64,000 nt of DNA from Actinomycetes bacterium (GCA_029782335.1 JAKOVA010000002.1:1-64000); one strand, 5' to 3'; shown: positions 16,548 through 31,277, numbered from the stretch's first letter. Numbers and translations are program-made. Notes: generated by a model from the letters alone, not told the origin.

Positions 16548-17858
16548 GTGTCCGAGTTCGTCGATGAGGCCGCGCTCTGCGCGCGTGGGGGTGACGGCGG
16601 CGCCGGGTGCGTGTCGTTTCGTCGCGAGGCCCACGTGCCCCTCGGTGGCCCCGACGGCGGAGACGGCGGGAAGGGTGGTGACGTGTGGCTCGTCGCCGAC
16701 CGCAACGTGGCATCGCTCCTGGCGTTCCGCGATCACCCGCACCGCAGCGCGGCGAGTGGTACCCACGGCCAAGGCAAACGTCGCCACGGCTCACGTGGCG
16801 ACGATCTGATCGTGAAGGTGCCCGAAGGCACGGTCGTCAAAGACCGTGACGGGGTCGTGCTCGCAGACCTCGTCACCGCCGGTGACCGGTGGCTCGCCGC
16901 GGCGGGGGGCCACGGCGGCAAGGGCAACGCCCGCTTTCTCTCCAACCGGCGACGAGCGCCTGCGTTCGCCGAGCAGGGCGAGGAGGGGGTCGAGCGGTGG
17001 GTCTGGATGGAGCTGAAGCTGATGGCCGACGTGGCGCTCGTCGGTCTGCCCAACGTCGGCAAGTCGACCCTCATCTCGAGGATCTCCGCGGCCCGGCCGA
17101 AGATCGCCGACTATCCGTTCACCACGCTGGTGCCCAACCTCGGGGTGGTGCGCGTCGCCGATGACGAGGATTTCGTCGTCGCCGACATTCCCGGCCTCAT
17201 CGAGGGCGCCGCACAAGGCCGTGGGCTCGGGCACCGCTTTCTGCGTCACATCGAGCGGGCCAGGGTCCTCGTGTTGCTCCTCGACTTGTCTCCGCTCGCG
17301 GAGCTGTCGCCCGCGGATCAGGAGCGGGTGTTGCTCGGTGAGCTTGCCGACTATCGCCCCGAGCTCCTCGAGCGACCGATGGTGCGGGTGGGTGCCCGTG
17401 TCGATCTCGCCGAATCGGGGGGTGACGCGAAGCCCGGTGGCGAGCCTGGCGGCGACGACCTGCTCCGGATCTCGGCGGTGACGGGGCAGGGCATCAGCAG
17501 CCTCGTGGGTCGCCTCGCCACGATGGTCGCGCAGACCCGCGCCGAGGAGCCGGAACCCGACTCGTATGTCGTCCACCGCCCGGTCGCGGAGGGCTTCCGG
17601 GTGATTCGTGGCGATGACGGTGCATCCTTCGAAGTGGTCGGTCGCGAGGCCATCCGAGCGGTCGCGCTGTCGGACCTCACCCAGCCTGCTGCCCTTGATG
17701 TCGCCCAGGAGCGGCTGCGTCGCCTTGGAGTCGATCGGGCCCTCGCCCGTGCGGGAGCGCGCGACGGTGACGTGGTCCGTATCGGCCGCCTCGAGTTCTC
17801 CTACGAGGGCGAGGATCAGTTCCGGGTCGACGACGAGGCGACGGGACGGTCGAGGTGA
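16548..17858 (+). CDS. obgE: GTPase Obg (ribosome maturation and stress)
   Basis: Essential GTPase that binds 50S precursors and (p)ppGpp. The 436 residues hold the glycine-rich Obg domain (1-158, ARGGDGGAGCVSF, GGPDGGDGGKGG), the G domain with P-loop GLPNVGKST at 166-174 and DIPGLIEGA for G3, and a C-terminal OCT domain (about 350-425). In the G4 region the usual N-K-x-D is not evident: the sequence runs VRVGARVDLAES, so G4 looks degenerate (V-G-A-R-V-D), which is worth checking. It is followed by proB after seven bases. Confidence 0.95.
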   Translation: MSEFVDEAALCARGGDGGAGCVSFRREAHVPLGGPDGGDGGKGGDVWLVADRNVASLLAFRDHPHRSAASGTHGQGKRRHGSRGDDLIVKVPEGTVVKDRDGVVLADLVTAGDRWLAAAGGHGGKGNARFLSNRRRAPAFAEQGEEGVERWVWMELKLMADVALVGLPNVGKSTLISRISAARPKIADYPFTTLVPNLGVVRVADDEDFVVADIPGLIEGAAQGRGLGHRFLRHIERARVLVLLLDLSPLAELSPADQERVLLGELADYRPELLERPMVRVGARVDLAESGGDAKPGGEPGGDDLLRISAVTGQGISSLVGRLATMVAQTRAEEPEPDSYVVHRPVAEGFRVIRGDDGASFEVVGREAIRAVALSDLTQPAALDVAQERLRRLGVDRALARAGARDGDVVRIGRLEFSYEGEDQFRVDDEATGRSR

Positions 17859-17865
17859 ACCGCCG

Positions 17866-18948
17866 ATGAGGATCGTCGTCAAAGTCGGGACGTCGTCGAT
17901 CACCGACGACGACGGGCGACTCGACGTCACCGCGATGGCGAAGGTGTGCGCGGAGATCGCCGAGGCTCGCGCGGGAGGCCACGAGGTGGTCCTGGTCTCG
18001 TCCGCCGCGATCGCGGCGGGTCTTCCCGCCCTGGGGCTGACCGCACGTCAACGGCCTCGAGACGCCCGTACCCTCCAGGCGGTCTCCGCAGTGGGCCAAG
18101 CCCGCCTCATGCAGCGCTACAACGAGATCTTCGCCGACCTCGATGTCGTGGCCGGACAGGTGCTGTTGGCACCACGCGACTTCATGCTCCGCCACCAGTA
18201 CCTCCACGCCCGCTCCACCCTCGACCGGCTGCTCGAGTTGGGTGTCGTTCCGATCGTCAACGAGAACGACGCCGTCGCCGACGAGGAGATCCGCTATGGC
18301 GACAACGACCGGATCGCCGCCCTCGTCGCGCAACTCCTCGACGCGAGGCTGCTCGTCCTGCTCACTGATGCCGCCGGGCTCTTCACTGCCGATCCGCGCG
18401 TTGACGCCGACGCCTCGCTCATCGAGGAGATCGCCCGGATCGACCATGAGCTCGAGTCGCTCGCCGGCGGGTCGGGTTCCAACCGTGGGAGCGGCGGGAT
18501 GTCGACGAAGATCGCGGCGGCGAAGATCGCGGCATGGTGTGGTGTCCGAACCGTGATCGCTGCCGCGGACCGCCCCGGCGTGGTCGGCGACGCGATCCGC
18601 GGCACCGCAGGGGTCGGCACGGTGGTCCAACCGCGCTCGGAACGGCTCAGCGCGAGAAAGGTCTGGATCGCGTTCGCGGTCGGAAGCTCGGGTCGGCTTC
18701 ACGTCGACGCCGGCGCAGTCCGAGCGTTGCTCGAACGCAACTCGTCGCTGCTCGCCGCGGGCATTCGTCACGTCGAAGGTGACTTCGATGTGCGCGACGC
18801 GGTCGAGGTCGTCGATCCGACCGGTGCGCCGATCGCGAAGGGGCTCGTTCGGGTCGACGCAGAGACGCTACGAAACGCCGGTTCGGAGGTTCCGAGCCTC
18901 GTCATTCACCGTGACGACCTCGTGGCGCTGCCGTCGTCGGTTCGCTGA
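17866..18948 (+). CDS. proB: Glutamate 5-kinase
   Basis: First step of proline synthesis, ATP-dependent phosphorylation of glutamate. The 360 residues comprise the amino-acid-kinase domain (1-250; VKVGTSSI, SSAAIAAG, NENDAVADEEIRYGDND, GGMSTKIAAAKIA) and a C-terminal PUA domain (about 275-355). ATG 17866 follows GAGGTG and gives the standard N-terminus. The pathway partner proA lies 8.4 kb downstream in the same orientation, separated by the minus-strand stress-type operon. obgE-proB adjacency is common in Actinobacteria. Confidence 0.96.
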   Translation: MRIVVKVGTSSITDDDGRLDVTAMAKVCAEIAEARAGGHEVVLVSSAAIAAGLPALGLTARQRPRDARTLQAVSAVGQARLMQRYNEIFADLDVVAGQVLLAPRDFMLRHQYLHARSTLDRLLELGVVPIVNENDAVADEEIRYGDNDRIAALVAQLLDARLLVLLTDAAGLFTADPRVDADASLIEEIARIDHELESLAGGSGSNRGSGGMSTKIAAAKIAAWCGVRTVIAAADRPGVVGDAIRGTAGVGTVVQPRSERLSARKVWIAFAVGSSGRLHVDAGAVRALLERNSSLLAAGIRHVEGDFDVRDAVEVVDPTGAPIAKGLVRVDAETLRNAGSEVPSLVIHRDDLVALPSSVR

Positions 18949-18988: not shown

Positions 18989-19828
18989 TCAGCTGGCAGC
19001 GGGTGCCTCGGGCCCACTTGACGGCTCGGCCGAGGGCGCCGGTTCTGCTGCGGCTGCTGCTGCCGAGGTGTCGGTTGCCGTTGCAGCGGTGGCCGGCGCC
19101 GTGGTGCCGGCGATCCCGAGCTCGCTGCGGATCTGCTCGAGCCGGGCCTGCGCCTCGGTGTTCATCGCCGCGTGTTCGACTTCGAGCATCTTGGCCTCGA
19201 CACTCGAGCCGCTGAGCTCCGCCGCTGCGGTCGCCTTCGCGTACCGCTGCTCGATCTTCTGGCGGACCTCGTCCATGGACGGGACGTCTTCGCCCACCGT
19301 CTGGGAGAGGCTCGTCATCGTCGCATTGAGCGACTCCTGCATCTTCGCCTGGTCGAGCTGGGAGACGAGCCGCTGCTTCTCGGAGAGCTTCTTCTGCAAC
19401 GCGGTGCTGTTCTGGGAGACGGCCGCCTTCGCCTGATCCGAGGCCTGAGCGGCCTGGAGCGCCATCTGCTTGAGGCTCTCGACCTCGGCCTCGAGCGCGA
19501 TGAGACGGTTCGCGAACGACTCGGCCGCGGACGCGAACTCGGCCGACTTCGTCGCGTCTCCCTTCTTCGCCGCCTCGTCGGCCATGAGGACCGCCTGACG
19601 TGCGTTCGCGTTGACCTTGGCGAGCTCATCGAGCTTCGCGTCGAGTTGCATCTCGGTGGTCTTCTGGTTCGCGATCACCGTGGCGGCCTGTTCGGTCAGA
19701 CGGCGGTGCTGTTCACGGGCTTCGGTGATCGCCTGTTCGAGCTGCACCCGCGGATCGGCCTGTTCATCGAAAGCCATGCCGAGCTTGGTTCCGAGGTATT
19801 TCCACCAACGACGGAGGGTCTTGAGCAT
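18989..19828 (-). CDS. pspA: PspA/IM30-family membrane stress protein
   Basis: ESCRT-III-like coiled-coil protein that protects or reshapes the inner membrane. The 279 residues are almost entirely helical, with the N-terminal amphipathic helix LKTLRRWWKYLGTKLG, then DPRVQLEQAITEA and long coiled coils to about 220. The C-terminal 50 residues are Ala/Pro/Ser-rich and disordered. A TAACAT hexamer seven bases before ATG 19828 favours that start over the ATG three codons upstream (19837). It follows murJ by 108 bases on the same strand, behind an operon of envelope proteins, which supports an envelope-stress role. Confidence 0.88.
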   Translation of the reverse strand: MLKTLRRWWKYLGTKLGMAFDEQADPRVQLEQAITEAREQHRRLTEQAATVIANQKTTEMQLDAKLDELAKVNANARQAVLMADEAAKKGDATKSAEFASAAESFANRLIALEAEVESLKQMALQAAQASDQAKAAVSQNSTALQKKLSEKQRLVSQLDQAKMQESLNATMTSLSQTVGEDVPSMDEVRQKIEQRYAKATAAAELSGSSVEAKMLEVEHAAMNTEAQARLEQIRSELGIAGTTAPATAATATDTSAAAAAAEPAPSAEPSSGPEAPAAS

Positions 19829-19835
19829 GGGCTGC

Positions 19836-19841
19836 ATGTTA
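19836..19841 (-). promoter_or_regulatory. Putative -10 (TAACAT) of pspA
   Basis: On the minus strand TAACAT is followed by seven bases and ATG 19828. No Shine-Dalgarno separates them. It suggests pspA can be expressed on its own in addition to read-through from murJ. Confidence 0.45.
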
Positions 19842-19936: not shown

Positions 19937-21577
19937 TCAACCGCGTCGAAGGCGTTCGGCGAGCTGCCCGAGGAGCCGGCGGCTCCCCTCGACGTTGAGG
20001 GCGACTGCGGCCGCGGCGTAGGTGGCGAGGCCAAGCGGCGTCACGACCAGCAGTCGGCTGAGCGCGCCGCCGGGCACCGCCACGCGTGTGAGGGCGATCA
20101 CCCCTGCCATGACGGCGGACGCTGCGACGATTCGCAGGGCCTGGTCTGCCAGGTGACGAAGGCGGTGACGATCGCCGAGGCCCACCCGGCGGTGCAGTAC
20201 CACGAGCGAGACGGCTGCGGCGATGAGGTACGCGGCCGAATAGGCGCCCGCGAGGCCGACCGCACCGGCCCCGATGAGCGCGAACGCCCCGAGCACGTTC
20301 AGCCCGTTCTCCAACAGGTTCAGCAGGAACGGGGTTCGTGTGTCGCTCAGCGCGTAGAAGGCCCGGAGGGTCAGCAGATACACCGAATATCCGGTGAGTC
20401 CGATCGCGAACGCGACGAGCGTGCGACCCGCGAGCAGCGCGTCGCTCAGCGTGTAGTCCCCGTGGCGCAACATGACGACGGCCAACTCGTTGCCCAAGAG
20501 GACATAGCCGACCGCGGCAGGAACGATGAGGGCCAACAGCGCGCGGAGCGCCTGTGCGAAACGCGTTTGATACGCGGCGACGTCTCGATCGACCGCCGCC
20601 CGGGCGAGTTCCGGGAGAAACGTCGTCATCAGCGTCACGGCGATGAGGCCATGGGGGAGCTGGAAGTAGATGAACGCGTTCTGGTAGGCGGTGACCTTGC
20701 CCGCCGGTGGTCGGTCCGCAAGTCGGAGCACCACCGCGAGCGCCACCTGATTCGCGGCGACGTAGCCGAGCGTCCAACCCGAAAGCCGCACGAGCTGTCG
20801 CAACATCGGGTGGCGCCAGTCGAAGTTCCATCGCAGCCGGATGCCCGCCCCTCGCATCGAGTGGATCAACGGGATCGTCATCGCGACGATCCCGGCGGTC
20901 GTGCCCAGGCCGAGCACGAGCCGAGCGGTGGGGTCGCTGCCGATCGCGGAGATCCCGTTTCGCGGGCCACCGGGATACGCGACGACGAGGTAGCCGCACA
21001 CGGCGATCACGATGACGTTGTTGAGCACCGGCGTGAACGCTGCGGCCAGATACCTCCGGCGGGCGTTCAACGCGCCGGTGGCGAGGGCGGTCAGCCCGTA
21101 GAATAGAATCTCGGGCAGCAGGAGCTGCAACAGCGGGACGAGCAGGTCGATCTTCTGCGCTGCATGAGGCCGTCCGGCGTCGACATAGACGCGGGCGAGC
21201 AGCGGCGATGCCACGACCGCGATGACCGAGACGGCCGCGAGGGTGACGAGGCCGACGCTGAAGAGCGCCGAGGGCCCGCTCGGATCACGCTCACGGTCCG
21301 CCTTGACGAACAGGGGGATCATCGTGGCCGACAGCACGCCCCCGATGAGCAGCTCGTAGATGATGTTCGGGGTCGTGTTCGCGAGGTTGTACGCGTCGCT
21401 GAACAGGTCGCTGCCGAGCGCCGCAGCCAGTGCGATTACTCGGATCATTCCCGTCAGACGACTGAGGCCCGTTCCGATCGCGACGGCCATCGACGAGCGG
21501 AGCAGTCGAGGGTTTCCGTCCTCGTCGTCGTGGTCGACGACGGCTCGGTCAGATTCGACCGCGTCGTCGGGGCTCAC
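19937..21577 (-). CDS. murJ: Lipid II flippase MurJ
   Basis: Flips lipid-linked peptidoglycan precursor across the membrane (MOP superfamily). The 546 residues carry about 14 membrane helices. Family features include the N-terminal SSMAVAIGTGLSRLTGMIR and LLIGGVLSATMIPLF near residues 60-75. GTG 21577 sits in a GTGA overlap with the upstream gene; a longer in-frame start at 22102 would overlap that gene throughout with Arg-rich nonsense translation and is rejected. It is the last gene of a five-gene minus-strand operon. There is no C-terminal pseudokinase/extracellular extension like that of the mycobacterial MviN protein. Confidence 0.94.
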   Translation of the reverse strand: MSPDDAVESDRAVVDHDDEDGNPRLLRSSMAVAIGTGLSRLTGMIRVIALAAALGSDLFSDAYNLANTTPNIIYELLIGGVLSATMIPLFVKADRERDPSGPSALFSVGLVTLAAVSVIAVVASPLLARVYVDAGRPHAAQKIDLLVPLLQLLLPEILFYGLTALATGALNARRRYLAAAFTPVLNNVIVIAVCGYLVVAYPGGPRNGISAIGSDPTARLVLGLGTTAGIVAMTIPLIHSMRGAGIRLRWNFDWRHPMLRQLVRLSGWTLGYVAANQVALAVVLRLADRPPAGKVTAYQNAFIYFQLPHGLIAVTLMTTFLPELARAAVDRDVAAYQTRFAQALRALLALIVPAAVGYVLLGNELAVVMLRHGDYTLSDALLAGRTLVAFAIGLTGYSVYLLTLRAFYALSDTRTPFLLNLLENGLNVLGAFALIGAGAVGLAGAYSAAYLIAAAVSLVVLHRRVGLGDRHRLRHLADQALRIVAASAVMAGVIALTRVAVPGGALSRLLVVTPLGLATYAAAAVALNVEGSRRLLGQLAERLRRG

Positions 21578-22332
21578 GTCCCGCCTGTCGCGCCGCTGAC
21601 GCCGCGGGCGGTCTCGAGTCCCTGGCGCAGCGCTTCCATCTCGTCGCCGATCGCGCTGAACTCGGCTCCGACGTCGTCGACACTGCCGATGACGGCACCA
21701 CCGGTGGACGCGGACAGTTCGATCGCGCGGGTCACCGTGTCCTCGAGCCGCTCTGCGAGCAGCCGCAACTTGTCGCGGGTGGCGGTAATGGCCGCGTCCA
21801 TTCGTGACGCAGTCTCGAGTTGGGAGCGAATCGCCGCCTCGGTGCGTTGGGTGATGTCGGTCGAATACCCCGATCGTTGCAGCTCGTCGAGCTCGCGTTG
21901 TGCGCCGGCGGCGTCGACTCGACGCCGTGCCTCGGTGAGCGCGTGGCCTGCATATGCGGTTCGCCAACACTCGAGCACGCCATGGTGGAGGTTGTCGCCG
22001 AGCAACTCGAGCCGCTCGCGGATCGGCCCGGCGGTGGCTCGACGCACTGCGTCGCGGTACTGCTTCTCGGCAGCGAGTGCGCTCTGCACCAATCGACGCC
22101 ACGGTTCGTCGAGGGCGAAGGGGTCGATGCGGTCTTCTTTGGGGCCGCGGGGGATCGCAGCGCCGACACGTGCGGCGAAGAACAGCACGCCGCCGACGAT
22201 GGCCCCGAGGGGGTTCCCCAAGGCGAGGATCCCGAGGGCTGTCCCGGCGCCCGCAGCGAGGATGCCAGACGGTGACGTGATGGCGCGCGCGACGGGACGG
22301 CTGAAGAAGCGGTCACGGAGCGAGGGTGCCAC
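21574..22332 (-). CDS. Coiled-coil membrane protein, unknown
   Basis: The 252 residues start with a basic segment and a Gly/Ala-rich hydrophobic hairpin (about 19-55, GILAAGAGTALGILALGNP), ending at a PRGPKEDRIDPFAL linker. Residues about 75-235 are predicted helical with heptad-like spacing. No domain was recognised. It overlaps murJ by GTGA and follows the VWA lipoprotein by 14 bases, so it is part of the same operon. The layout suggests a cytoplasmic coiled coil tethered to the membrane, possibly bridging the exported VWA protein and the ATPase (inference). Confidence 0.75.
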   Translation of the reverse strand: MAPSLRDRFFSRPVARAITSPSGILAAGAGTALGILALGNPLGAIVGGVLFFAARVGAAIPRGPKEDRIDPFALDEPWRRLVQSALAAEKQYRDAVRRATAGPIRERLELLGDNLHHGVLECWRTAYAGHALTEARRRVDAAGAQRELDELQRSGYSTDITQRTEAAIRSQLETASRMDAAITATRDKLRLLAERLEDTVTRAIELSASTGGAVIGSVDDVGAEFSAIGDEMEALRQGLETARGVSGATGGT

Positions 22333-22346
22333 GGCGATCGATTCCC

Positions 22347-24167
22347 TCAGAAGTTCGACACGACCTGCGTGAAGACCTCGCTGATGGATGAAGCGTCGGT
22401 CGCGTTGTACGCAGCGGCGTTCGAAGCTTCGGCCATCGATCGCAGCGACGGCATGTCGGCGTCAGCGCCGTAGCCGATCGTGAAAACCCGCACGGGCTTC
22501 GCGTTCTCGCCGGTGGACCCTTGTCGGATCTGGGTGAGGAGGTTGGACTCCTGGCGACGGTCATCGGCGCTGTTCCCGTCGTCGTTGCGGCCGTCGGTGA
22601 GCAGCAGCACTGCGTTGATCCGAGCGGGGTCGTAGCCGTTGAGCACGTCGCGGTACGACGCCGCCGCCACGTCGAACAGTGGCGTGCCGTTCGTGGGGAT
22701 CAGGTTGCCGATCTGGCGTTTGAGCATCTCACGGTTCTGGCCGATCGCTCCGATGGGAACCAGATCGAGGTACATGCGGCTCTGGTCGGGGCCGAGGCCC
22801 GTCGAGAAGATCCGCAGCCCGACCTCGTCGTCGTCCTTGAAATCGTCGAGCGCTTGGACCGCCGCGCGTTTGGCCAACTCGAGCTTCGTGTCGGAGGAGT
22901 CGGCTCCCGCCGAGTCGCCCATCGACCCCGAGACGTCCAAGACGATCAGCACACGGGCGGTCTTGCGGTTGACCGCCCACTGATCGAGAAGGTCGACCAT
23001 CACCTTGGGTCGCGGAACCTGCAGCAGCGTCGCCGGCTGGCTGGGGTCGACTCCGTGTGCGGCGTCGACCGGCGCCGCGATCGACACCTTCGGGTTGGCA
23101 GGTCGGAACCCGAACTTCAACACCCGGCGTTGATTCGCCGGCTCCTGAACGAACTCCTGGAACTTGGTCGCCGCCTGCCGCTTCGCGTCGGTCACCCAGG
23201 GGGCATCGAGAATGAAGAACGGACTGTCGGAGTACAACGTCCCCTCCGCCGGGTAGACCGCGACGAGGGGAGTCTTCGGTTTGCGGGGCTCCTCGCCCGG
23301 GTCGAGCACGCCGTCGGGGTTCCCGGCGTTGTAGTCGATGACCGACTTCTCCTCGACCGCGACCGCCGATGCGTAGGTCAACGCGGTGCCACGCCGGTCG
23401 GCCCGGTACCAGTTGTTGAGGAAGGTCATGGTGATGTCGCCGTAGTGGACCACTGCCGACTCGATGCCGCGGTTGAACTCGACGGTCGCGGGGTTGGTGA
23501 GGTCTTCGGAGGTGAGGTCCTGGGTTTTTCCGACGGCGGCGTAGTTCTGCGCGATGAGCGCCGAGAGGCCCGAAGTGGAGAAGTTCGGGTTGGTCTTGCC
23601 GAGCCGGAAGGGGCCCCACTCCGGGTGTCCGTAGAGCGCCCACCCCTGAGGGTCCTGCGCGAGTCGCAGAATGTCGGACCACTCGACTGGGGTTGCCGGG
23701 TAACCCATGGCGTTCGCCATCGGCTTCGGCATGGCGATCACCAGCGGCGTCAACATGAACGGTTGTGCGTCCGGTGACGTCATCGCCGCGGCGCCCCGGT
23801 CGGCGAGCCGCTGGTTGAGGATCGCTCCCCACGAACTCGCCGCGGGTGACCAGATGACCGGTTTCGGTCCGTCGGTCCGCTCATCCCAGCCGTTGGCGAG
23901 TGCCGACATCCCGACGCCGGAGGACTTCTTTTGCACCCGGACCACCACGCAGTCGCCTCCGACACGCTCGTTGCGCCGGTTGAAGCTCTCGGCGAGGGCC
24001 GTGAGCAGGTCGAGCTTCTCGGGGGAGACGGCGGTGTCGACCGTGACGCAATTGCTGGGCGTCGTCGGCGCCTCCGCCTCGTTGCCGTCGCCTCCGCAGG
24101 CGACGAGGAGGCCGGCGACCACTGCGAGCGCGCCGAGCGCGAGTGTCGTTCGAGACAAGCGGTTCAT
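22347..24167 (-). CDS. Lipoprotein with solute-binding and VWA domains
   Basis: The 606 residues start with a lipoprotein signal (LLVAC, Cys24). Residues about 40-375 look like a type 2 periplasmic binding protein (LLTALAESFNRR, VIWSPAASSWGAIL, FFILDAPWV). Residues about 400-605 are a von Willebrand A domain with the MIDAS D-x-S-x-S in VLDVSGSMGD near 410 and LLTDGRND further on. A binding module and a VWA module are thus fused on the outer face of the membrane. ATG 24167 is in an ATGA overlap with the upstream gene. Similar fusions occur in other Actinobacteria; the ligand is unknown. Confidence 0.85.
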   Translation of the reverse strand: MNRLSRTTLALGALAVVAGLLVACGGDGNEAEAPTTPSNCVTVDTAVSPEKLDLLTALAESFNRRNERVGGDCVVVRVQKKSSGVGMSALANGWDERTDGPKPVIWSPAASSWGAILNQRLADRGAAAMTSPDAQPFMLTPLVIAMPKPMANAMGYPATPVEWSDILRLAQDPQGWALYGHPEWGPFRLGKTNPNFSTSGLSALIAQNYAAVGKTQDLTSEDLTNPATVEFNRGIESAVVHYGDITMTFLNNWYRADRRGTALTYASAVAVEEKSVIDYNAGNPDGVLDPGEEPRKPKTPLVAVYPAEGTLYSDSPFFILDAPWVTDAKRQAATKFQEFVQEPANQRRVLKFGFRPANPKVSIAAPVDAAHGVDPSQPATLLQVPRPKVMVDLLDQWAVNRKTARVLIVLDVSGSMGDSAGADSSDTKLELAKRAAVQALDDFKDDDEVGLRIFSTGLGPDQSRMYLDLVPIGAIGQNREMLKRQIGNLIPTNGTPLFDVAAASYRDVLNGYDPARINAVLLLTDGRNDDGNSADDRRQESNLLTQIRQGSTGENAKPVRVFTIGYGADADMPSLRSMAEASNAAAYNATDASSISEVFTQVVSNF

Positions 24168-25039
24168 CGGGTTACGTCTTTCACTCGTTCACGGAGGGTA
24201 GCGAGCGCCCCGGGGTTGAAGTCCCGCGTGCCGCGCCCGGCGCGCCACCCGGCCCGGGTGAGGGCGGCCCGGAGCTGCTCGAGTGGCACCGCATCGGGGT
24301 TGCCGGCGATCACGACCGCGACGGTCGGCCCATCCGGGGGGACGACCGCATCGACCGCCTGGGGGTTGACGCCGGAAGCGTCGACGCCGAGGCCGAGCGC
24401 AACGTCGAAGACGCCGGTCGTCTGGATCTGACGGATGACCGGCGCCCCTCGGCTCACGAGGTTCGCGGAGTGCTCGACCTCGTTCAGCCACTGATCGAAG
24501 CCGTCGTCCTCGTCGATGTCGTTGCGGGCGAAGTCGGTGCGGGGTCGGTCGCCGTCATGGAGATGCCCGGCGACGAGCGCCCCGATCCCGGCGAGACCGC
24601 TCGTGGTGTCGACCGAGTCGTGGGCGACGCGGCGGCCGGGCTCCGCAAGGCACTGCCAAGTGTGGCACGAGGTCAGCTCCGGGGCGCGACGCAGGACCGC
24701 GGCGACCGACGTGTGGGCGATCGGGGCGCTGGTCTCCAGTAGCGGCTGGGCGGGCCCGAAACCGGCGATCGTGACCCAGGGCGACGCGACCACCCACGCG
24801 TCGGCGTCGAGGGAACCGCCCGTCGCGAGCCGCTCGGCGGTGACCGCCGGCCGTTCGCTGCGGACATCGACGCCGCTGAGGGCACGGCACGCCGCTTCGA
24901 GCACGTTGTCACAGATGATCGACCGGCGGTGCTCCGGCGCGTCGCTGTCGCGTGCGTTGTCGTCCCGCAACGCACGCCGGAGCGCGATCGCCCCGAGGAC
25001 CATCGCGACCGACAGCAGGAGCGCCCCGAGGCGCTTCAC
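24164..25039 (-). CDS. Exported binding-protein-like protein, unknown
   Basis: The 291 residues begin with one hydrophobic helix (about 4-22, LGALLLSVAMVLGAIAL) without a lipobox, so it is membrane-anchored or secreted. The remainder has alternating strands and helices resembling a periplasmic-binding fold (CDNVLEAACRAL, DAWVVASPWVTIAGFG, VAVVIAGNPDAVPLEQL) with four cysteines that could form two disulfides. GTG 25039 overlaps the AAA+ gene stop (GTGA); the GTG four codons further upstream is less likely. No named family was recognised. Its place between the ATPase and the VWA lipoprotein argues for a shared system. Confidence 0.7.
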   Translation of the reverse strand: MKRLGALLLSVAMVLGAIALRRALRDDNARDSDAPEHRRSIICDNVLEAACRALSGVDVRSERPAVTAERLATGGSLDADAWVVASPWVTIAGFGPAQPLLETSAPIAHTSVAAVLRRAPELTSCHTWQCLAEPGRRVAHDSVDTTSGLAGIGALVAGHLHDGDRPRTDFARNDIDEDDGFDQWLNEVEHSANLVSRGAPVIRQIQTTGVFDVALGLGVDASGVNPQAVDAVVPPDGPTVAVVIAGNPDAVPLEQLRAALTRAGWRAGRGTRDFNPGALATLRERVKDVTR

Positions 25040-26502
25040 GGCGTGACCCACGGCGGTGGAGGCGGATCGGCGTGTCCCGGCGCGCCGGCCGCCAGAGACC
25101 CGGAGGGCGGATGGAGCGGCAGATCCTCGGGAAGCAGGGTGATCAGATCGGACTCACCGGGTGACTCGAGCCCGACGATGCGGCTCGCCTGACGGGCGAC
25201 GGCGTCCTCGAAAATGTTGCGGGCGAAGCGACCGTTACCGAAGCCTTTATCTCGCGGCGCGTCGTGGAAGATTCGCTGGAGTTTCGCTTTCGCGGCGTCG
25301 TTGAGCTCGTAGCGTTTGGCGCCCGCGATCGACTCGAAGATCATCAGGAGTTCGTCGTCGGAGTAGTCGGGAAACTCGATCGTGGTAGGGAAGCGGCTCC
25401 GGAGACCAGGATTGGCGTCGAGGAAGTCGCCCATCTCGTCGGGGTAGCCGGCGACGACGACCGCCACTCGATCCCGGCGATCCTCCATCAACTTCACGAT
25501 GGCGTCGATCGCTTCACGGCCGAAGTCGTTCTCGCCCCCGCGGGTCAGCGTGTAGGCCTCGTCGATGAAGAGCATGCCGCCGTCGGCCTCGTCGAAGCGT
25601 TTGGTCACCTGCGGCGCGGTTTGGCCGACAAAGCCGGCGACGAGGCCGCTTCGGTCGGTCTCGGTCAAATGCCCGCGCTCCAACACGCCGAGCGTGCGGA
25701 AAATCTTGGCGAGCAGCCTCGCGACGGTGGTCTTTCCCGTCCCGGGGTTTCCGACGAACACGAGGTGCTGGCTTGTCTCGACCGTCGGAAGCCCGTGTTC
25801 CGTCCGGAGGCGCTGCACTTGGAGCAGGTCGGCGATCCGAGCGACCCGTGCCTTCACCTCGCTGAGCCCGACGAGGCCGAGGAGCTCCGCCATCAGCGTC
25901 TCGAGGGGGACGGGCGGCTCATCGACCGGTTGGGCCGGTGCTGGTTGGGGGCTGTCCGCCGGGGCCACCGTGTCAGCGGGCCCGCTCGGCGCGACCACCT
26001 GTTCGTTGGAAACCTCGCGGATCCGTCCGACGAGCATCGAGCGGAACGAGGCGATCGCATCGAGTTCGGCCTGGCTCGTCGCGACGTCGAGCGCAGCGAC
26101 CGCATGCATCACGTCCATCGCTCGGCTGTAGTACGTCCAGGCGTAGGAGCGGTCGTGCGAGGCGGCGACGAGGATCTCGAACATCGTCGACGGTGTCGAC
26201 AGCCAACGACCCTTGTCGGCGACGAGGGTCGAGCCCCGGAGCTGCTGGGGTGTTGCGCCGGCGAGCTGCTCATCACCGAGGAGCGGTCCGAAGGTTCGGG
26301 CCAGGGCCCACAGTTCGGGATCGGCGTGGCGGCCGTCCGCGTCGATGAACGCGGTGACGATGTTGAAGGCCTCGTTGATGGCGTCGTCGCGTGACCGATC
26401 GGGCCGCGCCGCGGGCAGGCCGGCGGTCACTTCGGCGAGCGCGGCGCCGACCTGGTCGACGAACGCGTCAACCGAAGGAGAGAGCGGGTCCGCGCCGTTC
26501 AT
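25036..26502 (-). CDS. AAA+ ATPase (CbxX/CfqX type) with TerB-like N-terminus
   Basis: The 488 residues divide into a helical N-terminal domain (about 40-165), a Pro/Ala linker (170-200) and a CbxX/CfqX/SpoVK-type AAA+ domain (205-480). Walker A is GNPGTGKT (251-258) and Walker B MLFIDEAYTL (310-319), with the family's glycine-rich VAGFVGQTA pore segment near 288-296. The N-terminal part has a TerB-like pattern (FIDADGRHADPELWAL), an assignment that needs a profile search. A TAGCCT hexamer lies eight bases before ATG 26502. It heads the operon that runs through the VWA lipoprotein to murJ, and probably remodels one of those partners from the cytoplasm. Confidence 0.88.
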   Translation of the reverse strand: MNGADPLSPSVDAFVDQVGAALAEVTAGLPAARPDRSRDDAINEAFNIVTAFIDADGRHADPELWALARTFGPLLGDEQLAGATPQQLRGSTLVADKGRWLSTPSTMFEILVAASHDRSYAWTYYSRAMDVMHAVAALDVATSQAELDAIASFRSMLVGRIREVSNEQVVAPSGPADTVAPADSPQPAPAQPVDEPPVPLETLMAELLGLVGLSEVKARVARIADLLQVQRLRTEHGLPTVETSQHLVFVGNPGTGKTTVARLLAKIFRTLGVLERGHLTETDRSGLVAGFVGQTAPQVTKRFDEADGGMLFIDEAYTLTRGGENDFGREAIDAIVKLMEDRRDRVAVVVAGYPDEMGDFLDANPGLRSRFPTTIEFPDYSDDELLMIFESIAGAKRYELNDAAKAKLQRIFHDAPRDKGFGNGRFARNIFEDAVARQASRIVGLESPGESDLITLLPEDLPLHPPSGSLAAGAPGHADPPPPPWVTP

Positions 26503-26510
26503 CCGGGCGG

Positions 26511-26516
26511 AGGCTA
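26511..26516 (-). promoter_or_regulatory. Putative -10 (TAGCCT) of the AAA/VWA/murJ operon
   Basis: On the minus strand TAGCCT is followed by eight bases and ATG 26502, in the 50-base gap after the DsbA-like gene. This would make the five-gene operon an independent, nearly leaderless transcript. Confidence 0.5.
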
Positions 26517-26552: not shown

Positions 26553-27194
26553 TCACGGCGCTGAGCGGGCTGCTGCCCGCTGGAGCGCTCGCTCGAACAC
26601 TTCGGTCGGCTGCGCTCCCGCGACCGCGAGCGCGCCGTCGATCAAGAAGTACGGCACACCCGTCACGCCGAGATCGAGCGCCGCGTCTTCGTCCGCTCGG
26701 ACCTCAGCGGCGAACTCGTCGCCGACGAGCATCTCGGCGACCTCCGTCCGGTCCAGCCCGGCGTCGACACCGATGCGGGCGAGGGTGAGGTGGTCGCTGA
26801 TGGTCTCACCGTCGGTGAAGTAGGCGCGAAGGAGTCGTTCTTTCACGTTGAGGGCTAGGTCGTGGGTGGCGGCGAGGTGGATCAGCCGATGGGCGTCGAA
26901 GGTGTTCGCGCGGACGGCACGGTCGAAGCGGAAATCGATCCCGAGCGGCTCGCCTTGTTGGCGAAGGCTGTCGTTCGCCGCGTGCGCCTGTTCGAGCGAC
27001 ATGCCGTACTTCTTCGCGAGATGCTCCTCGATGGTGCCCGTTGCGGCCGCCGGAGCGTTGGGGTTCAGCTCGAAGCTCCTGATGTGAAGGTCGAGCTCAC
27101 CCTCGAGGCCAACGTTGACCACTGCCGCCTGAAGGCGGCGGAGGCCGAGGAAGCAGAAGGGGCACACCACGTCCGACCACATCTCGATTCGCAT
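26553..27194 (-). CDS. DsbA-family oxidoreductase (FrnE-like)
   Basis: Thioredoxin-fold oxidoreductase of the cytoplasmic FrnE/2-hydroxychromene isomerase-like group. The 213 residues have the C-P-F-C active site at 11-14 (SDVVCPFCFLG) and the cis-Pro loop GVTGVPYFLIDG near 177. No signal peptide is present, so it is cytoplasmic. A purine-rich stretch (GGGAAGGG) precedes the ATG. It ends 50 bases before the ATPase operon on the same strand, and is divergent from proA. Confidence 0.88.
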   Translation of the reverse strand: MRIEMWSDVVCPFCFLGLRRLQAAVVNVGLEGELDLHIRSFELNPNAPAAATGTIEEHLAKKYGMSLEQAHAANDSLRQQGEPLGIDFRFDRAVRANTFDAHRLIHLAATHDLALNVKERLLRAYFTDGETISDHLTLARIGVDAGLDRTEVAEMLVGDEFAAEVRADEDAALDLGVTGVPYFLIDGALAVAGAQPTEVFERALQRAAARSAP

Positions 27195-27350: not shown

Positions 27351-28598
27351 ATGTCCGTCACGCCGATCGCCGAGCTCGGGCGTCGGGCCGCGGCAGCGGC
27401 CGCAACGGTCGCCGCAGCCTCGACCGCCCAGAAAGACGAGACGTTGCGTCTCGCCGCAGACCTGCTCGAAGCCCGCTCCGCTGAGATTCTCGCGGCGAAC
27501 GAACTCGATGTCGCTGCGGCTCGTGAGCGAGGCGAGTCGAGCACCGTCATCGATCGACTGATGCTCACCGAGGCAAAGATCGCCGCCATGGCGGCCGGGT
27601 TGCGCCAGGTTGCCGGGCTCGCGGATCCGGTCGGAGAGGTACTCGGCGGTTGGGTTCGACCGAACGGGTTGCGGATCAGCCAGGTGCGTGTTCCCCTCGG
27701 CGTTGTCGGCATCATCTACGAGAACCGCCCCAACGTCACCTCCGACGCCTTCGGGCTGTGCTTGAAGTCAGGCAACGTCGCCTTCCTGCGGGGTTCCTCG
27801 GGTGCGATCCGCTCGAACCTTGCGATCGCCGCCGTGCTGCGCGCCGCCCTCAACAAAGGCGGCCTGCCCGAGGACGCGCTCGTCGTCGTCGACGACACCT
27901 CGCGCGAGGCGGCGGTCGAGTTCATGCAGCTTCGCGGGGTGATCGACTGCCTCATCCCCCGTGGTGGGCCATCACTGATCGCGTCGATCCAGGAGCATGC
28001 GACCGTTCCGTTCATCATCGACGGCGACGGCAACTGTCACCTCTACGTCGACGCCGCCGCCGACCTGGCGATGGCCGAGTCGCTGCTGCTCAACGGAAAG
28101 ACCCAGCGGCCGTCGGTGTGCAACGCGCTCGAATCGCTGGTTGTTCACCAGGCGGTCGCGGAGCAGTTCCTTCCCCGGGTGGATGCGGTGCTCGGTGAGG
28201 TCGAGTTGGTCGGCGACGAGCGCGCCACCGCAGCGATCCCACGTTGTGAACCCGCAGCGGACGATGACTTCTCCCGAGAGTTCCTCGATCTGAAGCTCTC
28301 GATTCGGGTGGTCGATTCCCTCGACGAGGCGATCGCGCATGTCAACGAGACGGGTTCGGGCCACTCGGAAGCGATCGTGACCGAGGACCTGCGCGTCGCG
28401 GATCGCTTCGTGGCCGAGGTCGACGCGGCGGCAGTGTTGGTGAACGCGTCGACGCGGTTCGTCGACGGTGAGGAGTTCGGCTTCGGGGCAGAGATCGGCA
28501 TCTCGACCCAGAAGCTGCACGCTCGGGGCCCGATGGGGCTTCGCGAGCTCACGACCGCGAAGTACGTCGTGCGAGGCGACGGCCAAACCCGCGGCTGA
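27351..28598 (+). CDS. proA: Glutamate-5-semialdehyde dehydrogenase
   Basis: NADPH-dependent reduction of glutamyl 5-phosphate, second step of proline synthesis. The 415 residues match the family length and contain GVVGIIYENRPNVTSDAF, LCLKSGNVAFLRG and the catalytic cysteine region QRPSVCNALESLVVH, with the C-terminal signature FVDGEEFGFGAEIGISTQKLHARGPMG split across 370-395. It works with the proB product. The gene is single and followed by an unusual repeat spacer. Confidence 0.97.
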   Translation: MSVTPIAELGRRAAAAAATVAAASTAQKDETLRLAADLLEARSAEILAANELDVAAARERGESSTVIDRLMLTEAKIAAMAAGLRQVAGLADPVGEVLGGWVRPNGLRISQVRVPLGVVGIIYENRPNVTSDAFGLCLKSGNVAFLRGSSGAIRSNLAIAAVLRAALNKGGLPEDALVVVDDTSREAAVEFMQLRGVIDCLIPRGGPSLIASIQEHATVPFIIDGDGNCHLYVDAAADLAMAESLLLNGKTQRPSVCNALESLVVHQAVAEQFLPRVDAVLGEVELVGDERATAAIPRCEPAADDDFSREFLDLKLSIRVVDSLDEAIAHVNETGSGHSEAIVTEDLRVADRFVAEVDAAAVLVNASTRFVDGEEFGFGAEIGISTQKLHARGPMGLRELTTAKYVVRGDGQTRG

Positions 28599-28801: not shown

Positions 28802-29719
28802 ATGCCCGACGGTCCAGCCAACGAGTTCCGATTCGACAGCGTCGACGACGTCCGCGACCGACTTCGAAAGGTCGATTACCTCTCCGACGAGGGGATCGCG
28901 GGGATCGTGTATCTCGCGGACCGACTCGGCAAGCCGATCCTCGTCGAGGGTCCTGCCGGTACCGGCAAGACCCAGCTCGCGAAGTCCGTCGCCGAGATCA
29001 CCAACGCGCGGCTGATCCGGCTGCAGTGCTACGAGGGCCTCGACGAGTCGAAGGCCCTCTACGAGTGGAACTACAAGAAGCAGCTGCTGCGCATCCAGGC
29101 GTCGAAGGCCGACGGTGACTCGACGGGGTGGGACCAGATCGAAGAGGACATCTTCTCCGACGACTTCCTCCTCACCCGCCCGCTGCTCGAGGCGATCCGT
29201 GCGGAAGACCCCGTCGTGCTGCTCATCGACGAGGTCGACCGCGTCGAGGTCGAAACCGAGGCGCTGCTCCTCGAGATCCTCTCGGACTACCAGGTGTCGA
29301 TTCCCGAACTGGGCACGATCACCGCGAGGCAGATCCCGCTCGTGTTCCTGACGTCGAACAACACCCGCGAGTTGTCCGAGGCGTTGAAGCGCCGCTGCCT
29401 GTTCCTCCACATCGACTACCCGGATATGGAGCGCGAGAAGGAGATCGTGCTCACGAAGGTGCCCGACATCTCCGAGTCGCTCGCGGATCAGGTCGCTCGG
29501 ATCGTGCGGTCGATCCGGCAGCTCGAGCTGAAGAAGTCGCCGTCGGTGTCCGAGACCCTCGACTGGGCACGCACGCTCATGCTGTTGGGCGTCGAGAAGG
29601 TCGACGCAGAGGTCGCGACGAGCACCGCCAACATCCTGCTCAAGTACCAGACCGATATCGCCAAGGCGAACAAGGAGCTTTCCAACGAAGCCTCCACGGT
29701 CAATCGGGCGGCGAAGTGA
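28802..29719 (+). CDS. MoxR-family AAA+ ATPase
   Basis: Chaperone-type ATPase that works with VWA proteins in metal-centre insertion or complex assembly. The 305 residues carry Walker A EGPAGTGKT (about 49-57), Walker B VVLLIDEVDRVE (about 139-150) and sensor 1 LTSNNTRELSEALKRRC. The sequence YEGLDESKALYEWNYKKQLL after Walker A is typical of the CoxD-like group. It is followed by a VWA/CoxE-like gene, the usual partner, across a 15-bp repeat. No CO dehydrogenase or other client genes are in the window, so the client is unknown. Confidence 0.93.
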   Translation: MPDGPANEFRFDSVDDVRDRLRKVDYLSDEGIAGIVYLADRLGKPILVEGPAGTGKTQLAKSVAEITNARLIRLQCYEGLDESKALYEWNYKKQLLRIQASKADGDSTGWDQIEEDIFSDDFLLTRPLLEAIRAEDPVVLLIDEVDRVEVETEALLLEILSDYQVSIPELGTITARQIPLVFLTSNNTRELSEALKRRCLFLHIDYPDMEREKEIVLTKVPDISESLADQVARIVRSIRQLELKKSPSVSETLDWARTLMLLGVEKVDAEVATSTANILLKYQTDIAKANKELSNEASTVNRAAK

Positions 29720-29790: not shown

Positions 29791-29798
29791 GTGGCGTG

Positions 29799-31277
29799 AT
29801 GGGTGAGCAGCTCGCGGTGGCCGGTGCGCCGATGCTGGCGCTGTTGAACGGATTCATCATCGAGCTGCGCCAAGCCGGCCTGCCGGTCAGCCTCACCGAA
29901 CACCTCGACGCGATGGAGGCGGTGAAGCACATTCCCCTCGAGGACCGCGCTGCCTTCAAATACGCGCTCGCCGCGACGCTGGTGAAGAACAACGCCCACT
30001 GGCGCAGTTTCGAGACGGTGTTCGAGGTCTACTTCTCGCTCCGCGGGCGCGAGTACGCCGTTGGCGACGAGCTCGCCGACCTCCCAGAGGATCTGCTCGA
30101 CGAGCTCGAGCAGATGATGAGCGGGCAGGGCGACGGGCAGATGCAGGGTGGTGGCGGCCACGAGGCACTGAGCGCCGAAGAGCTCGCCGAGATGCTCTAT
30201 CAGTCGCTGCTGCGCGGCGATCAGTCGATGATGCGCGCCGTGGCTCGACAGTCGGTGAAGCGATTCGCGGGCATGGAGCCGGGCCGGCCGGTGGGCGGCA
30301 CGTATTACCTCTATCGGACGCTGCGGAACCTCGATCTCGACTCGGTCATGAACCGGCTGATGGACCAGTCGCGTTCGGGCCGTGACGACGAGCCGCTCAC
30401 TCCGCTCGAGGAGCGACTCGAGCGTGATGAGTACGAGTCGCGGGTGGAGCAGCTCAAACAGGAGATCGAAGCGGAGATCCGGCGGCGTCTCGTCGCCGAC
30501 CGGGGCGTCGAGGCAATGGCGAAGACCCTCCGCAAGCCCCTCCCCGAAGACATCGACTTCATGCACGCCAGCCGCGACGAGATGAAGCTGTTGCGCCAGG
30601 CGATCTACCCACTGACCCGCAAGCTCGCGGTTCGGCTCGCTCGCAAACGGCGCCATGGTCGCAAGGGTCCCCTCGACTTTCGCAACACGGTTCGCCACTC
30701 GCTCAGCTACGGCGGTGTGCCCGCCGAGCCGAAGTTCCGTTACCCGCGGCCGGCGAAGCCGGAGATCTTCGTCATCGCGGACATCTCCGGGTCCGTCGCG
30801 GCCTTCGCGCGGTTCACGCTGCACCTCGTCTACGCCATCGCGAACCAATTCTCGCGGGTGCGGGCGTTCGTGTTCATCGACGGCATCGACGAGGTCACCC
30901 GGTTCTTCGAGGGCACCGAGGACATCGTCGAGTCGATTCACCGGGTCAACACGGAGGCGGACGTGGTCTGGGTCGACGGCCACTCCGACTACGGCCACGC
31001 GTTCGAGACCTTCTGGTCGAAGTGGGGCAAGGAGGTCGGGCCGAAGACCACCGTCCTCATCCTCGGCGATGCGCGCAACAACTATCACGCCGCGCAGAGC
31101 TGGGTGATCAAGGAAATCCGCCACCGCGCCCGGCACGTGTACTGGCTGAACCCCGAGCCTCGGTCCTACTGGGACACCGGCGATTCGATCGTGGGCGAGT
31201 ACGGCACCCACTGCGACGGGGTCTACGAGTGCCGCAACCTCCGCCAACTCGAGAAGTTCGTCGACGTCCTGACCTGA
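29799..31277 (+). CDS. CoxE-like VWA-domain protein
   Basis: Cytoplasmic VWA protein that pairs with MoxR ATPases. The 492 residues have a helical N-terminal half (with a Gly/Gln-rich stretch near 108-125) and a C-terminal VWA domain whose MIDAS motif is D-I-S-G-S near 328-332; the threonine/aspartate loops WVDGHSDYGHA and LILGDARNN follow. It has no signal peptide or membrane helix. The start is ATG 29799, with GTG 29796 as the alternative. It is separated from moxR by the 15-bp repeat array and surely co-transcribed. Confidence 0.9.
   Translation: MGEQLAVAGAPMLALLNGFIIELRQAGLPVSLTEHLDAMEAVKHIPLEDRAAFKYALAATLVKNNAHWRSFETVFEVYFSLRGREYAVGDELADLPEDLLDELEQMMSGQGDGQMQGGGGHEALSAEELAEMLYQSLLRGDQSMMRAVARQSVKRFAGMEPGRPVGGTYYLYRTLRNLDLDSVMNRLMDQSRSGRDDEPLTPLEERLERDEYESRVEQLKQEIEAEIRRRLVADRGVEAMAKTLRKPLPEDIDFMHASRDEMKLLRQAIYPLTRKLAVRLARKRRHGRKGPLDFRNTVRHSLSYGGVPAEPKFRYPRPAKPEIFVIADISGSVAAFARFTLHLVYAIANQFSRVRAFVFIDGIDEVTRFFEGTEDIVESIHRVNTEADVVWVDGHSDYGHAFETFWSKWGKEVGPKTTVLILGDARNNYHAAQSWVIKEIRHRARHVYWLNPEPRSYWDTGDSIVGEYGTHCDGVYECRNLRQLEKFVDVLT

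Follow-up and report, generated by a model that had tools for sequence, protein, structure and literature searches.

We analyzed a 64,000-nucleotide stretch of DNA from an Actinomycetes bacterium (GCA_029782335.1, JAKOVA010000002.1:1-64000; hereafter the window), which belongs to an acidimicrobial metagenome-assembled genome (MAG) that is 75% complete. Between 26502 and 19937, five genes on the minus strand encode, in this order, an AAA+ protein (AAA), a second substrate-binding-like protein (SBP2), a lipoprotein with substrate-binding (SBP) and VWA domains (SBP-VWA), a coiled-coil membrane protein (CC) and MurJ. They are followed on the same strand by pspA, whose product is a relative of human ESCRT-III that serves in bacterial membrane repair. 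The features, and the evidence on which each assignment is based, are as follows (aa, amino acids; nt, nucleotides; AF2, AlphaFold2).

26511..26516 (-): -10-like box TAGCCT, 14 nt 5' of the AAA ATG (conserved position of TANNNT)
25036..26502 (-): AAA+ chaperone of the CbbX/SpoVK/EccA clade, 488 aa (Pfam, NCBIfam, AF2/Foldseek, motifs)
24164..25039 (-): SBP2, predicted membrane-anchored, diverged substrate-binding-like protein, about 291 aa (profile-profile match, hydrophobic N-terminal segment)
22347..24167 (-): SBP-VWA lipoprotein, 606 aa (Pfam domains, lipobox, MIDAS)
21574..22332 (-): CC, predicted membrane-hairpin helical protein, 252 aa (AF2 model, profile match to an actinomycete family)
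19937..21577 (-): MurJ lipid II flippase (TIGR01695)
19836..19841 (-): -10-like box TAACAT, 13 nt 5' of the pspA ATG at 19828 (conserved position of TANNNT)
18989..19828 (-): PspA (PspA/IM30, bacterial ESCRT-III superfamily; PF04012)

All five open reading frames (ORFs) proposed in the initial annotation are present at these coordinates, and the TAGCCT box that it had placed before the first gene was found. The junctions, described there as overlaps or a 14-base gap, consist of three 4-nt overlaps (GTGA for AAA/SBP2, ATGA for SBP2/SBP-VWA and GTGA for CC/MurJ) and one 14-nt gap (SBP-VWA/CC). The first overlap holds if SBP2 starts at 25039; its longest ORF begins at 25051, and the downstream start was preferred because it is supported by relatives, which begin with MKR-L. 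The longest pspA ORF starts at 19837. Taking the second ATG (19828), the start common to relatives, pspA begins 108 nt past murJ. The locus is flanked by obgE-proB and proA (window 16548-18948 and 27351-28598). On the obgE-proB side, this context persists in several acidimicrobial genomes, including some in which no more than pspA, murJ or CC remains (L128, L130, L131).

The AAA+ protein contains the Pfam domains AAA and AAA_lid_6 (PF17866, 71.8 bits). Its best NCBIfam match is SpoVK (TIGR02881), and it stays under all equivalog cut-offs (284 bits for a cut-off of 423 with SpoVK, 220 for 459 with CbbX and 227 for 467 with EccA). The AF2 model (pLDDT 85) gave CbbX (3syk) as top Foldseek match (E 2.4e-18, 39% identity). 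Walker A (251), Walker B (311), a GY sensor-1 (352-353), NPGLR (364-368) and GNGRFARN (422) were located in the sequence. The signature of the CbbX/SpoVK/EccA clade is GY in sensor-1, an Asn four residues before the arginine finger and a sensor-2 Arg (PMC10659427); GY, NPGxR, the sensor-2 Arg and AAA_lid_6 are all present here. Pfam, NCBIfam and AF2/Foldseek thus agree that the protein is a chaperone of this clade, and the profile and structure-prediction searches bear out the AAA+ ATPase call of the initial annotation. Its "TerB-like" label was not supported. The N-terminal domain (about residues 8-165) is all helical; matches to TerB were weak, limited to 2 of 25 members (best E 0.074), and an hhalign comparison of this region with six TerB proteins scored 21.3, the best of 20 shuffles reaching 18.6, so that TerB homology is unproven. 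The region has no sequence match in the PDB, and Pfam scans of the protein revealed no MIT domain, the fold of the isolated N-terminal domain lying outside these searches. While the AAA core, AAA_lid_6 and clade signatures are shared with CbbX, SpoVK and EccA, the window protein differs from them by the missed cut-offs, by its N-terminal domain and by the position of its gene in a pspA locus. Chaperones of the CbbX clade are narrow and dedicated, with one or few substrates and often with envelope functions (PMC10659427). An AAA+ and a VWA protein are also encoded in one operon in the MoxR-VWA and RavA-ViaA pairs; unlike these, the window locus combines a VWA protein predicted to be exported with a cytosolic AAA+ protein that is not MoxR.

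In SBP-VWA, the SBP_bac_11 and VWA domains score over the Pfam cut-offs, a lipobox (LVAC) is present and the metal-ion-dependent adhesion site (MIDAS) is intact (D411-S413-S415, T495, D525); DxSxS and D525 are invariant in an alignment of 19 SBP-VWA sequences. In an hmmsearch against the PDB, the whole SBP-VWA profile matched VWA domains only. SBP2 belongs to no Pfam family and has an N-terminal hydrophobic segment. The SBP2 profile can be aligned along its full length to the SBP domain in SBP-VWA (hhalign 97.7%, E 2.4e-12), a profile-level result confirming SBP2 as a diverged paralogue of that domain. CC has a hydrophobic hairpin (about 21-58) followed by a predicted cytoplasmic helical bundle (AF2 pLDDT 74). 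It matches no Pfam or NCBIfam family and is of the same family as its actinomycete counterparts (hhalign 99.3%, E 1.8e-20). MurJ (TIGR01695, 286 bits) exceeds the equivalog cut-off of 235.6, and PspA, the sole PspA of its genome, scores 91.1 bits with PF04012 (cut-off 33.9, E 1e-25). These searches uphold the identities first read from motifs for the binding/VWA lipoprotein, the "binding-like" second gene, MurJ and PspA.

Variants of these proteins were seen elsewhere. Shorter CC paralogues lie outside the main locus (L134:5350-6240, L135:4440-5003, L136:4630-5217 and G000:C92:13437-14003); the one in L134 adjoins pspA, and those in L135 and L136 are close to a gene for a zinc-finger TFIIB-like protein. 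Two tandem SBP-VWA genes precede PspA in a Streptosporangium and in a Chloroflexi MAG (L107:8019-11743, L118:7712-11683), and a third SBP, of the branched-chain-amino-acid type, is encoded between CC and PspA in L041:11911-13050 and L039:5579-6733.

For the neighbourhood survey, profiles were built from class relatives, named genome contigs were scanned and all ORFs were scored in 94 non-duplicate loci, which were chosen by SBP-VWA score and for which we used our own gene calls. Loci at roughly 50% identity and above, together with two divergent members of the class, are referred to as acidimicrobial-type. The others come from Streptosporangiales, Micromonosporales, Pseudonocardiales and Chloroflexi MAGs (Streptosporangium, Dactylosporangium and Amycolatopsis among them). 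CC directly follows SBP-VWA in 47 of 48 testable acidimicrobial-type loci and in 31 of 36 others, and PspA lies within 4 kb downstream in 32/37 and 11/32, respectively. AAA is found upstream of SBP-VWA in 30 of 44 acidimicrobial-type loci and in none of 35 others; for MurJ downstream, the counts are 16/37 and 0/32. In Dactylosporangium and Planosporangium the gene order is ClgR-like, SBP-VWA, CC, PspA, PspM, with PspM at 186 and 174 bits (NCBIfam cut-off 80) and the ClgR-like match at 111 bits, under the equivalog cut-off of 170. The known actinobacterial psp operon thus harbours the SBP-VWA-CC pair in Micromonosporales, with a ClgR-like regulator on one side and pspA-pspM on the other; ClgR-like and PspM genes were found beside pspA in the relatives L111, L113 and L114. 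With other neighbours again, SBP-VWA-CC-PspA recurs in Streptosporangium, Nonomuraea and Chloroflexi. This survey, named beforehand as the test that could refute the grouping, found AAA, SBP2, SBP-VWA, CC and PspA kept together well beyond close relatives, and it shifts the centre of the system to PspA. The initial annotation had mentioned pspA as a same-strand neighbour: its position was correct, and its status as an outsider was not, since pspA belongs to the locus as its most constant partner. One surveyed MAG, titled "Acidobacteria bacterium" (L046), has a typical acidimicrobial locus, and its record title may be wrong.

The link between AAA and PspA was also seen in surveys that did not depend on SBP-VWA. 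Full-length AAA is present in 15 of 148 class genomes, every time in the pspA locus (15/15). The genes between the two are absent in one genome (G146, locus L132), leaving a bare AAA-PspA pair. Intermediate arrangements include AAA-x-CC-MurJ-PspA (L127), AAA-CC-MurJ-PspA without SBP-VWA (G027, L128) and AAA-CC-SBP2 fragment-MurJ-PspA (L129), and loci without AAA retain CC-MurJ-PspA (L130) or MurJ-PspA (L131). A phylum sample of 297 genomes added nine genomes outside the class with full-length AAA, six of them with PspA in the locus. With 15/15 in the class and 6/9 outside it, the AAA-PspA link is strong, not absolute.

PspA stabilises stressed membranes. Starting from the gene content, domains, conservation, operon geometry and link to PspA described above, we infer a topology, a direction of sensing and an AAA+ substrate (PspA or CC-PspA). 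The lipid-anchored SBP-VWA and the membrane-anchored SBP2 would bind an envelope ligand or partner outside the membrane; they probably sense rather than import, because no ABC permease or ATPase gene accompanies them. CC, with its membrane hairpin and cytoplasmic helical bundle, would couple them to PspA at the inner membrane face, where PspA would polymerise on the stressed membrane. The CbbX-clade AAA+ protein would act as a dedicated chaperone that most likely uses ATP hydrolysis to extract or remodel PspA or CC-PspA. In loci with murJ, lipid II flipping would be expressed along with these proteins, so that wall-precursor export and membrane repair would be made together. Exported SBP/VWA proteins without an importer, a hairpin protein, an ESCRT-III-like polymer and a dedicated AAA+ protein suggest an envelope-stress chain from sensor to repair. 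We therefore think that the locus probably encodes a membrane-stress system centred on PspA: a version of the actinobacterial Psp response extended by exported SBP/VWA sensors, an adaptor with a membrane hairpin and a dedicated AAA+ chaperone. It shares the PspA core with the ClgR-PspA-PspM-PspN system of M. tuberculosis; unlike that system, it adds AAA, SBP2, SBP-VWA, CC and MurJ, and the genes surrounding the window locus include no recognised ClgR or PspM.

PspA resembles ESCRT-III, and the literature leaves open which ATPase remodels it (PMC8281802, PMC11746142, PMC11237479). As in archaeal and eukaryotic ESCRT-III/Vps4 systems, the window encodes a polymer of the ESCRT-III superfamily together with a classical-group AAA+ protein having an extra N-terminal helical domain. 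Unlike Vps4, this AAA+ protein belongs to the CbbX clade and has no MIT domain by sequence, so that the analogy is one of working and not of membership. By that analogy, the AAA+ protein would remodel PspA as Vps4 remodels ESCRT-III. The more specific proposal, that it is a Vps4 counterpart pulling subunits from PspA polymers and steered across the membrane by the SBP/VWA sensors via CC, is put forward tentatively and may well be wrong.

Several observations weigh against a PspA-centred system. Outside the class, G403 and G394 carry AAA without linkage to pspA, and in G316 the two lie on different contigs; Amycolatopsis, Microbispora and Planotetraspora have SBP-VWA-CC with no PspA next to it. 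No visible difference in the C-terminal tail of PspA separates loci that have AAA from those that lack it. The fold search with CC returned de novo bundles and generic helical proteins, with nothing at E <= 0.001, and a relationship of CC to PspM was not supported, hhalign giving 46% over a short coiled segment, or 0.9%.

Alternatively, the locus could encode a machine of the lipid II pathway: a SpoVK-like AAA+ protein would activate MurJ or a different enzyme of that pathway, with the exported SBP/VWA proteins keeping watch on the wall and PspA expressed alongside as a helper. In B. subtilis, SpoVK, which AAA matches best in NCBIfam, activates MurG (PMC10659427), and murJ overlaps CC by 4 nt in the window. 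Moreover, the window MurJ is the only one found in its genome, and the MurJ next to pspA is the only MurJ match in G000, G043, G075 and G083, the last three being 97-98% complete (the G075 protein is very diverged and its tree placement unsure). However, MurJ is missing from 21 of 37 acidimicrobial-type and 32 of 32 other loci while AAA stays with PspA, and G146 has AAA-PspA alone. In the MurJ tree, locus members group with sole MurJ copies lying elsewhere in G048 and G072, apart from a diverged second type of MurJ, and about 6 gains or losses at the locus are required (5-6 in bootstraps; 3 forced by supported branches). A lipid II machine is thus unlikely. MurJ, which had been taken as a core operon member, joins the locus only in some acidimicrobial genomes, where it can be the sole lipid II flippase.

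We also considered that two separate units merely adjoin: a sensory SBP-VWA-CC module, and a PspA with its own promoter kept near by proB/proA synteny. Promoter-like boxes bear on this point. At 11-16 nt upstream of the AAA start, TANNNT occurs in 15 of 39 loci, compared with 0-5 of 39 in shifted controls; this exceeds chance expectation, and the box resembles a leaderless promoter. Before the pspA start it was seen in 32 of 43 acidimicrobial-type loci (0-11 in shifted controls); in the upstream alignments, pspA starts that lack it frequently have a Shine-Dalgarno-like AGGAG in its place (e.g. L033 and L035, from the window's own family). Judged from these upstream alignments, pspA usually has a likely leaderless promoter box of its own, giving the locus at least two likely start points; the locus is therefore not one simple transcript. 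The claim that the proteins are made together must be qualified in view of the conserved pspA box. A sigma-70 scan found no promoter, as expected if these promoters have no recognisable -35. TANNNT before SBP2 starts (18 of 49) was only about twice as frequent as in shifted controls (up to 10), and no promoter is claimed there. Besides the pspA box, the occurrence of SBP-VWA-CC without pspA in many actinomycetes and the conserved obgE-proB/proA position speak for two units. Against them, SBP-VWA-CC-PspA recurs in surroundings as unrelated as the ClgR/PspM operons of Micromonosporales and the loci of Streptosporangium, Nonomuraea and Chloroflexi, and AAA-PspA persists after loss of the intervening genes. 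We consider mere adjacency improbable.

A role in solute uptake or nutrient sensing, with the SBPs serving an ABC importer, would fit the SBP_bac_11 and SBP_bac_8 domains and the extra branched-chain-amino-acid-type SBP of L041, but appears very improbable, since the window locus contains no recognisable gene for a cognate permease or ABC ATPase, the SBP is fused to VWA, a fusion that known importers lack, and the AAA+ protein is of the CbbX clade and not an ABC ATPase. PADLOC gave only weak, generic matches, which make no case for a defence system.

As far as could be found, a sensor-to-repair machine around PspA has not been described previously. PspA beside a protein with two AAA domains has been reported in some clades (PMC11237479). 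In the main text of two Psp surveys (PMC11237479, PMC9239133), vWA, von Willebrand, MurJ and substrate/solute-binding partners do not appear. Our literature searches returned no paper joining PspA with MurJ/VWA/AAA, or with von Willebrand and solute-binding. Published work treats as open whether an ATPase remodels bacterial ESCRT-III (PspA/Vipp1), and which one (PMC8281802, PMC11237479). An AAA+ protein from a dedicated-substrate clade, tied genetically to PspA across many genomes and once as a bare pair, lays that question open to direct test. The PspA-centred reading would also give a candidate function to the exported SBP-VWA family and to a coiled-coil membrane family recurring in actinomycetes, including in clgR-pspA-pspM operons. 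In those acidimicrobial genomes where the only detected lipid II flippase lies in the same locus, it would link wall-precursor export to membrane repair.

Two further neighbours were noted in the window. A DsbA/FrnE-like thioredoxin-fold gene (26553-27194, -) ends 50 nt upstream of the AAA start and could share a transcript with AAA; in relatives it is not always found next to the locus. Divergent from the AAA locus, a MoxR-type AAA+ gene (28802-29719, +) and a CoxE-like VWA gene (29796-31277, +) form a second, cytosolic AAA/VWA pair, which stays beside the locus in the relatives L127 and L131.

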